Shown here: piece after piece, positions 4,355-42,049 of the stretch
Layout of the letters: each line of letters starts with the position of its first letter
How positions within the stretch are numbered: the stretch's first letter is position 1
Assembly (NCBI GenBank): GCA_947624885.1
Contig: CANQMD010000004.1
Span: 1 to 42,049, forward strand
Source: an uncultured Clostridia bacterium
Lineage (GTDB): Bacteria; Bacillota; Clostridia; Christensenellales; CAG-917
Reading direction: 5' to 3'
Length of the DNA: 42,049 nucleotides
Made by a program: the position numbers and the translations under genes
The notes under the pieces: generated by a model
Seen by the model: the letters and a program-made list of their open reading frames with translations, nothing else
What the model was told of the DNA's origin: nothing
The model's database searches: none

Positions 4355-4452
4355 CACAAACCTCGCGCAAACGGGCAATTTGTCGCCGTCCTCAAAATCA
4401 TGTTGCCACACGCCAACATGCACAAACCTCGCGCAAACGGGCAATTTGTCGC
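4355..4452. repeat. Perfect 32-bp direct repeat pair flanking a hairpin
   Basis: CACAAACCTCGCGCAAACGGGCAATTTGTCGC at 4355-4386 and 4421-4452; between them CATGTTG-CCACACGC-CAACATG (4399-4420). Confidence 0.9.
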
Positions 4453-5190: not shown

Positions 5191-5270
5191 ATATACGCAT
5201 GCATTTCCGCATATACGCATGCATTTCCGCATATACGCATGCATACCCGCATATACGCGTGTGCATTTAT
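5191..5270. repeat. Four-unit 20-bp tandem repeat of alternating purine-pyrimidine sequence
   Basis: ATATACGCATGCATTTCCGC starting at 5191, 5211, 5231 and (diverged) 5251; exact 20-bp period. Confidence 0.88.
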
Positions 5271-14983: not shown

Positions 14984-15151
14984 GTCATTCTGAGCGCAGT
15001 CGAAGAATCCCCCTGATAGAGGCACCCACGTCCAGGCGTTTCCCATCCTCTCTGTCATTTTGAGCCTGTCGAAGAATCCCCCTGATAGAGGCACCCACGT
15101 CCAGGCGTTTCCCATCCTCTCTGTCATTCTGAGCGCAGTCGAAGAATCCCC
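14984..15151. repeat. Dispersed repeat family A, three tandem copies (~70-bp period)
   Basis: GTCATTCTGAGCGCAGTCGAAGAATCCCC-like copies at 14984, 15054, 15123; the first two units share the trailing AGAGGCACCCACGTCCAGGCGTTTCCCATCCTCTCT. Confidence 0.9.
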
Positions 15152-15185
15152 TTTGTAGAGGTATAACTCCGGTCATTGTATAGAA

Positions 15186-15242
15186 AAGGCTCCCTTTAGC
15201 AAGGGGAGCTGTCCGCCGAATATCGGCGGACTGAGGGGATTG
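15186..15242. repeat. Dispersed double-hairpin repeat family B
   Basis: AAGGCTCCCTTTAGCAAGGGGAGCTGTCCGCCGAATATCGGCGGACTGAGGGGATTG; contains perfect GTCCGCCGA-ATA-TCGGCGGAC hairpin. Confidence 0.9.
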
Positions 15243-15283
15243 CCCCCCCCCTTACTACCCCTCTCCGCCCATATATTTGCATT

Positions 15284-15340
15284 GGGGACGGGGGAAACAC
15301 CGCTTGAAATGAAAATTTATTTCATTTTTGCCCCGTCCCC
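15284..15340. repeat. Dispersed inverted-repeat family C (GGGGACGGGG...CCCCGTCCCC)
   Basis: GGGGACGGGGGAAACACCGCTTGAAATGAAAATTTATTTCATTTTTGCCCCGTCCCC; near-identical second copy at 40961-41017. Confidence 0.9.
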
Positions 15341-15496
15341 AACGAAAATAAAATATCAACCTAGTCGAAGCAATCACCCCAACCTTTGTCCGAGTGCTCT
15401 TATACAAGTACCACGCCTAGTCCGAGCCGCCACGCCTGTTCGCTATTCTCCGCCCAAAGCCCTGTCCAAGCCTCTCCCCTTGTTTCTCCGCCAACA

Positions 15497-35918: not shown

Positions 35919-35975
35919 AAGGCGCCCCTTAGTAAGGGGAGCTGTCCGCCGATATTCTGCGGACTGAGGGGATTG
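35919..35975. repeat. Family B repeat copy
   Basis: AAGGCGCCCCTTAGTAAGGGGAGCTGTCCGCCGATATTCTGCGGACTGAGGGGATTG. Confidence 0.88.
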
Positions 35976-35998
35976 TCAAAAAACAACTCATACTCGCT

Positions 35999-36027
35999 GT
36001 CATTCTGAGCGCAGTCGAAGAATCCCC
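35999..36027. repeat. Family A repeat copy
   Basis: GTCATTCTGAGCGCAGTCGAAGAATCCCC. Confidence 0.9.
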
Positions 36028-36060
36028 TTTGCAGAGGCACAGCGCAAGTTTCTCGTCAAA

Positions 36061-36157
36061 AAGGCTCCCTTTAGATTTACCCCACAAAATTCGACAAGCT
36101 CATTTTGCGGGGACCCCGATGTGGGGAGCCGGCACCTTCAGGTGCCTGAGGGGATTG
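36061..36157. repeat. Family B variant with altered internal hairpins
   Basis: AAGGCTCCCTTTAG...CCCCACAAAATTCGACAAGCTCATTTTGCGGGG...GGGGAGCCGGCACCTTCAGGTGCCTGAGGGGATTG. Confidence 0.8.
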
Positions 36158-40805: not shown

Positions 40806-40834
40806 GTCATTCTGAGCGCCGTCGAAGAATCCCC
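40806..40834. repeat. Family A repeat copy
   Basis: GTCATTCTGAGCGCCGTCGAAGAATCCCC. Confidence 0.9.
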
Positions 40835-40867
40835 TATACAGAGGCACAGCGCAAGTTTCTCGTCAAG

Positions 40868-40924
40868 AAGGCGCCCTTTAGTAAGGGGAGCTGTCCGCCG
40901 AATATCGGCGGACTGAGGGGATTG
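40868..40924. repeat. Family B repeat copy
   Basis: AAGGCGCCCTTTAGTAAGGGGAGCTGTCCGCCGAATATCGGCGGACTGAGGGGATTG. Confidence 0.9.
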
Positions 40925-40960
40925 TCCCCCATACATCCCTCTGCCTGTCTAGTTTCATTC

Positions 40961-41017
40961 GGGGACGGGGGAACACCGCTTGAAATGAAAATTCATTTTC
41001 ATTTTTGCCCCGTCCCC
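40961..41017. repeat. Family C repeat copy
   Basis: GGGGACGGGGGAACACCGCTTGAAATGAAAATTCATTTTCATTTTTGCCCCGTCCCC. Confidence 0.9.
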
Positions 41018-41829: not shown

Positions 41830-41988
41830 GTCATTCTTAGCGCAGTCGAAGAATCCCCTTGTAACTCTCAGGCAGGGTTTTGCTCGTATTTACTGTCATG
41901 TTGAGCGTAGTCGAAACATCCCCTTGTAACTCTCGGGCAGGGTTTTGCTCATATTTACTGTCATGTTGAGCGTAGTCGAAGAATCCCC
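41830..41988. repeat. Family A, three tandem copies (~65-bp period)
   Basis: Copies at 41830, 41894, 41960 separated by CTTGTAACTCTC(A/G)GGCAGGGTTTTGCTC(G/A)TATTTACT. Confidence 0.9.
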
Positions 41989-42049
41989 TTTGCAGAGAGG
42001 CACAGCCCCTTATCCCTTCAAGGCTCCTTTCTTCCATTTAAGGCTCCCT

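Follow-up and report, generated by a model that had tools for sequence, protein, structure and literature searches.

How three families of short intergenic repeats, A, B and C, came to stand in the same order at two distant sites is the question raised by this stretch of DNA. The window, as the whole 42,049-nucleotide stretch is called here, is contig C4 of a MAG of 1.59 Mb (160 contigs, 95% complete), referred to below as the own genome (G000). The A-B-C composites that a sequence-only reading had placed at 14984-15340 and 40806-41017 were present at both sites on the + strand. That reading took the order to suggest either mobilisation as a unit or stepwise insertion into a preferred target. 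Our conclusion is that A, B and C are probably the solo forms of repeats which, in relatives, bracket GIY-YIG, DUF559 (PF04480) and RAYT (Y1/HUH) genes, put together as a stepwise mosaic. The repeat copies in the window were as follows.

14984-15012, + strand: family A copy, exact consensus
15054-15081, + strand: family A variant A' (GTCATTTTGAGCCTGTCGAAGAATCCCC)
15123-15151, + strand: family A copy
15186-15242, + strand: family B, two hairpins and a CTGAGGGGATTG tail, fold z -5.5
15284-15340, + strand: family C, long palindrome GGGGACGGGG..CCCCGTCCCC, fold z -5.8 with flanks
35919-35975, + strand: family B copy, in an island that lacks C
35999-36027, + strand: family A copy
36061-36157, + strand: variant of family B, its hairpin 1 holding an additional palindrome, CCCCACAAAAT..ATTTTGCGGGGACCCCG, read directly
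40806-40834, + strand: family A copy
40868-40924, + strand: family B copy, fold z -5.1
40961-41017, + strand: family C copy, fold z -7.2 with flanks
41830-41988, + strand: three A copies, at 41830, 41895 and 41960, arrayed with a period of 65 nt
42040-42049, + strand: candidate beginning of a B-like copy (AAGGCTCCCT), truncated where the contig ends, read directly and too short for certainty

Site 1 reads A-A'-A-B-C and site 2 reads A-B-C, with every copy on the + strand; a third A/B island, at 35919-36157, has the order B-A-B and is without C. The A copies of site 1 are partly a 67-nt direct repeat with 99% identity. Folded as single-stranded DNA, B and C gave z scores of -5.1 to -7.2 against dinucleotide shuffles, and A, at 31 nt, showed no excess folding against such shuffles (z 0.0). 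A T precedes the A copies of the window, so that they start TGTCAT. Because of this start A is not assigned to the CGTC REPs; the CGTC tag and the stable palindrome were both absent. Several other repeats were seen. The fourth palindrome, CCCCACAAAAT..ATTTTGCGGGGACCCCG and its variants, lies within hairpin 1 of some B copies, and a palindrome of this type also occurs near nuclease genes of sister species (L249, L257, L259). Elsewhere in the window a 20-nt unit (ATATACGCATGCATTTCCGC) is present as three direct copies at 5191-5261, and an exact 32-nt direct repeat (CACAAACCTCGCGCAAACGGGCAATTTGTCGC), 66 nt apart, at 4355-4452.

Family A was found beside GIY-YIG genes, a partner that had been presumed before the new loci were tested. 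In G016, A copies flank a 93-aa GIY-YIG gene on both sides, and in G050 A-type repeats stand directly before the start codon and directly after the stop codon of a GIY-YIG gene. For independent loci, the G016 protein was searched against 391 genomes of the class, with homologues of the order of E 1e-28 or better counted as close and the A core defined as GTCAT..[TC]GAG within 400 bp. An A core was present at all 15 close homologues, on both sides in 12 of them, and at none of 12 distant homologues; by our own estimate, the chance of an A core near a gene is about 0.01 per gene. On this basis A is placed in a grouping that we propose, the GIY-YIG-bracketing repeats. Four of the remaining small GIY-YIG genes (L273, L276-L278) were without the A motif. 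The residues R28 and E65 were invariant among the GIY-YIG proteins, as would be expected of active nucleases. As a separate observation, L316 (G132), 1489-1782, holds a GIY-YIG gene from a clade further removed, with a different repeat on its two sides (z 61), perhaps another nuclease-repeat pair.

Family B elements lie on both sides of a gene of about 120 aa in G010 and G004. A PF04480 (DUF559) profile search was done in 60 relatives. All 11 standalone DUF559 genes were bracketed by the B-type signature or by flank-shared repeats, each by at least one criterion: the signature was present at 6 of 11, and repeats common to both flanks, a criterion not specific to B, at 9 of 11. The two-hairpin architecture of B was found beside standalone DUF559 genes, and B is placed in a second grouping that we propose, the DUF559-bracketing palindromes. 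The other five DUF559 matches (four within proteins of 441-1555 aa, one of 150 aa) were without the B-type signature. D51, E62 and D64 of DUF559 were invariant, again as expected if the proteins are active nucleases. Outside the relatives, DUF559 genes in records from Deinococcus (three), Photobacterium (one) and E. coli (one) adjoin CTCCC-type hairpins, and on two Deinococcus plasmids the DUF559 unit occupies different junctions beside hpa genes. Viral contigs yielded one weak relative each for the GIY-YIG and DUF559 nucleases, and these two were left out of the comparison.

For family C, a PF01797 profile search in 200 genomes of the order was used. The RAYT genes of G010 (253 aa) and G035 (255 aa) have GGGGACGG..CCGTCCCC palindromes on both sides, and those of G032 and G203 are surrounded by GGGGACGG repeats. 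The proteins matched Y1_Tnp above the cut-off and the RAYT model REP_Tyr_transpos below it, with 71-74 bits for L160, L161 and L163 against 80. A PDB sequence search with RAYT gave no match. In the own genome C is a multi-copy intergenic palindrome, and the sequence beside its constant core varies by lineage (ATTTTCATT in the own genome, TAACATT in G010, AACAATT in G035). C is not assigned to the GTAG REPs because it starts with GGGGACGG; the GTAG tag was absent. A RAYT-type partner had been suggested for the composite from the sequence, and the suggestion holds for C, given the flanking palindromes in G010 and G035; the partners of A and B differ, and no Y1_Tnp or RAYT gene was detected in the own genome, where gaps in the MAG are possible. 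Indeed, none of the three partner genes was found there: the link to the enzymes runs through relatives only, and in a fragmented MAG with contigs often ending in repeats, loss of a partner gene and an assembly gap are indistinguishable.

The brackets were also scored independently of repeat family, as repeats common to both flanks at z>5. By this test 14/16 close GIY-YIG genes, 9/11 DUF559 genes and 5/7 RAYT genes were bracketed, the RAYT genes L164 and L178 being without a bracket, and the controls discriminated: 1/15 for other GIY-YIG genes and 0/20 for IS200 TnpA. The association extends across phyla. GTCAT-type palindromes accompany genes of the GIY-YIG group in Planktothrix, Sinorhizobium, Azospirillum, Aeromonas, Photobacterium, Spirosoma, Sphingobium and Rhizobium sp. 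CIAT894. Most of these genes have them on either side, and in Photobacterium they were observed downstream only; the R. tumorigenes GIY-YIG gene had no clear bracket. In a Neisseria gonorrhoeae record CGTCATTCCCGC..GCGGGAATC (dRS3/CGTC-1) begins two bases past the GIY-YIG stop codon and is also present upstream. The bracketed GIY-YIG gene of a Planktothrix plasmid (L332) is situated between an MmeI restriction-modification gene and DISARM drmA. One clean empty-site comparison was obtained, for the GIY-YIG unit of Azospirillum. The sufB-sufC spacer of A. lipoferum 4B, 617 bp long, holds a CGTC dimer, the GIY-YIG gene and a second CGTC dimer; in A. ramasamyi, A. oryzae and A. thermophilum the spacer is 55-91 bp and without such repeats, and in Azospirillum B510 (L349) it is 129 bp and has a CTCCCCC..GGGGGAG hairpin instead. 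The repeat/GIY-YIG/repeat unit is absent from four sister plasmids, and one spacer would seem to have been used by two repeat families, in A. lipoferum 4B and in B510. A search in S. meliloti gave no clean empty site.

The main rival explanation regards both nuclease genes, GIY-YIG and DUF559, as selfish and of the homing type: they would have landed in existing repeats, which had spread by other means. Genes of both nuclease families do sit between operon genes in the manner of insertions, mobile genes that insert into REPs are known, e.g., ISPpu9 (PMC8450116), and a bracket alone cannot separate cause from target. On the other hand, the empty sites of Azospirillum are without CGTC repeats, so the unit appears to bring its own; the sole B match of G053 and that of G057 each adjoin DUF559; and each nuclease clade keeps its repeat type across phyla. 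The empty sites and the two sole B copies are few cases, and with them in hand we regard landing in existing repeats as rather unlikely.

The position of the islands bears on a further explanation, namely that selection retains them for a function at the 3' side of genes, as terminators or mRNA stabilisers, their copying being incidental. Among 26 islands with a flanking gene on each side, 21 are oriented like the gene upstream of them and 1 is flanked by divergent genes (crude ORF calls). Further, the pairing of B hairpin 2 survives wholesale sequence change: in 23 distinct sequences from four genomes the arms stay complementary, with a mean of 6.7 contiguous pairs vs 3.1 when arms are swapped. 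However, avoidance of promoters alone would yield a 3' bias, the same spacer varies in content from one sister species to another, the three families are missing from most members of the genus, and the window had no Rfam match at gathering score. Selection for a 3' function is thus an unlikely account of the islands.

Order and strand were then counted in the own genome from scanned stretches around copies, at a threshold score of 17 or more for A and B. There were about 105 A copies, about 32 B copies and 13 C loci whose flanks were informative. Neighbouring A and B copies no more than 300 bp apart were on the same strand in 80 of 82 pairs and opposed in 2; by order, there were 19 AB, 19 BA and 42 AA. 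All 13 C loci lay inside A/B islands, for which the chance is about 3e-8 if insertion is only into intergenic DNA, assumed to be 12%. C was at the 3' side of the island in 10 of 13 loci (one-sided binomial 0.046) and in 7 of 8 full-length copies (0.035), the exceptions among the 13 being C78:5626, C132:274 and C37:11. 'C last' is a real though imperfect rule, and 'A before B' is no rule. Thus the fixed order A-B-C proposed from the sequence survives in the non-random placement of C and fails for A and B. Likewise, the genome-wide comparison of copies that it called for found strand to be kept and C to be always within A/B islands, but the A/B order to be free. A further motif, GTCC[GA]AGC, recurs downstream of A copies, 78 times in the scanned stretches vs about 12 expected, in a sample biased to islands; its window positions are 15420, 15464, 35807 and 35896.

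The three families are distributed independently among the sister species. In a comparison with 60 relatives, matches to the A core motif were frequent in the own genome, G014 and G005 but rare or absent elsewhere; B was found in the own genome, G014, G004, G010, G005, G017, G016 and two order-level genomes; and C was found in the own genome, G010 and G035, with one weak match in G039. In G014 A and B are accompanied by a single weak C-like match, and G010 carries B and C with a single A-motif match. Orthologous spacers also hold different repeats. The spacer 3' of an amylase gene is A-A-A-B-C in the window; in G010 it contains nothing but B elements, of which two are reversed. For a spacer of own contig C65 with synteny to G016 on both sides, one of the two genomes has A-A-A-A-B-A; its counterpart has B, a further element with two hairpins, and a pair of A-like copies in opposed orientation. 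Such differences would fit repeated independent insertion and local tandem duplication. Since each family occurs in the sisters independently of the other two and a given spacer differs in its repeats from species to species, the islands are mosaics built stepwise and not a single mobile unit. Together with the equal numbers of AB and BA, these distributions and spacers, which differ in repeats and orientation, speak, of the two explanations first offered for the order, for stepwise insertion into a preferred target and against mobilisation as a unit.

That A-B-C was mobilised as one compound element of fixed order had in its favour the order common to the two window sites, the conserved sequence around C at both, and the 3' position of C. 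Against it, in addition to the free A/B order and the sisters with A and B or B and C only, islands without C are the majority in the own genome, the B-C linker is not conserved over its full length, and across the species-genome collection the B-C junction pattern was matched only in two unrelated archaeal MAGs. A compound element is therefore very improbable. The flanks of C are themselves conserved, so that no target-site duplication could be clearly delimited there. The archaeal contigs (L255, L256; Thermosphaera, Desulfurococcaceae) show an exact match to the B-C junction pattern, its spacing included. Finally, chance or an assembly artefact, to which a MAG in 160 contigs, many ending in repeats, might be prone, is hardly credible given multi-copy repeats in several independent genomes and strong structure and strand statistics.

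For the stepwise mosaic of solo repeats, the following mechanism is proposed. Each enzyme would nick or cut at or near its own repeat, and cutting would lead to the copying of solo repeats and, more rarely, of the bracketed gene to new sites. That GIY-YIG and DUF559 act on the repeats at all is something we infer, as is the copying route. Tolerant 3' spacers would collect repeats of several families, on one strand and downstream of genes, and local tandem duplication would fill out the islands. More broadly, CGTC/dRS3-like repeats and CTCCC..GGGAG two-hairpin repeats may, at what we judge to be an even chance, be non-autonomous forms of mobile units driven by GIY-YIG and DUF559, a nuclease counterpart of REP/RAYT across phyla. 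The analysis points to candidate enzymes for two repeat classes that are very common, one of which has been described as lacking a known transposase. A small conserved nuclease gene bracketed by CGTC repeats, a class that includes hundreds of Neisseria dRS3 copies, is a concrete and clonable candidate, and the same logic yields DUF559 as the candidate for B-type repeats. If this is true, at least three unrelated enzyme folds have given rise to REP-like spread, and mosaic islands are a record of several such systems sharing tolerant spacers. Searching the literature by repeat sequence gave unrelated papers only, and in open-access text we found no paper linking GIY-YIG or DUF559 to these repeats; an earlier description elsewhere is possible.

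The repeats resemble those of REP/RAYT systems (REPtrons, TIRtrons, REPINs; PMC3733652, PMC2817692, PMC3116915), likewise short multi-copy palindromes, mostly downstream of genes, and here too they bracket an enzyme gene in relatives, often in inverted orientation; the arrangement of C around RAYT fits a TIRtron (PMC3733652). They differ in that the partners of A and B are nucleases (GIY-YIG and DUF559) instead of tyrosine transposases, and in that C has GGGGACGG, not GTAG, in a genome without a detected RAYT. With regard to the CGTC REPs, including Neisseria dRS3 (PMC3733652), the GIY-YIG clade that has A-type repeats in Clostridia-like genomes adjoins CGTC-type repeats in proteobacteria and Neisseria, although the CGTC REPs start CGTCAT whereas A starts TGTCAT and is a weak palindrome in the own genome. 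No dedicated transposase was reported for CGTC repeats, Di Nocera and colleagues left their mobiliser open, and GIY-YIG goes unmentioned (PMC3733652). Free-standing GIY-YIG homing endonucleases match the genes described here in catalytic fold and in invariant residues of active-site type, and are likewise single small genes inserted between operon genes; the present genes differ in being bracketed by multi-copy palindromes scattered over the genome, with no intron or intein. The BIMEs of enterobacteria and the NIMEs of Neisseria, the latter containing dRS3, are likewise intergenic mosaics of different repeat modules (PMC2817692, PMC9778887). BIMEs, however, alternate in orientation, while the islands described here keep to one strand and are not classed with them; in contrast to both BIMEs and NIMEs, these islands are made of three families with three different enzyme partners.
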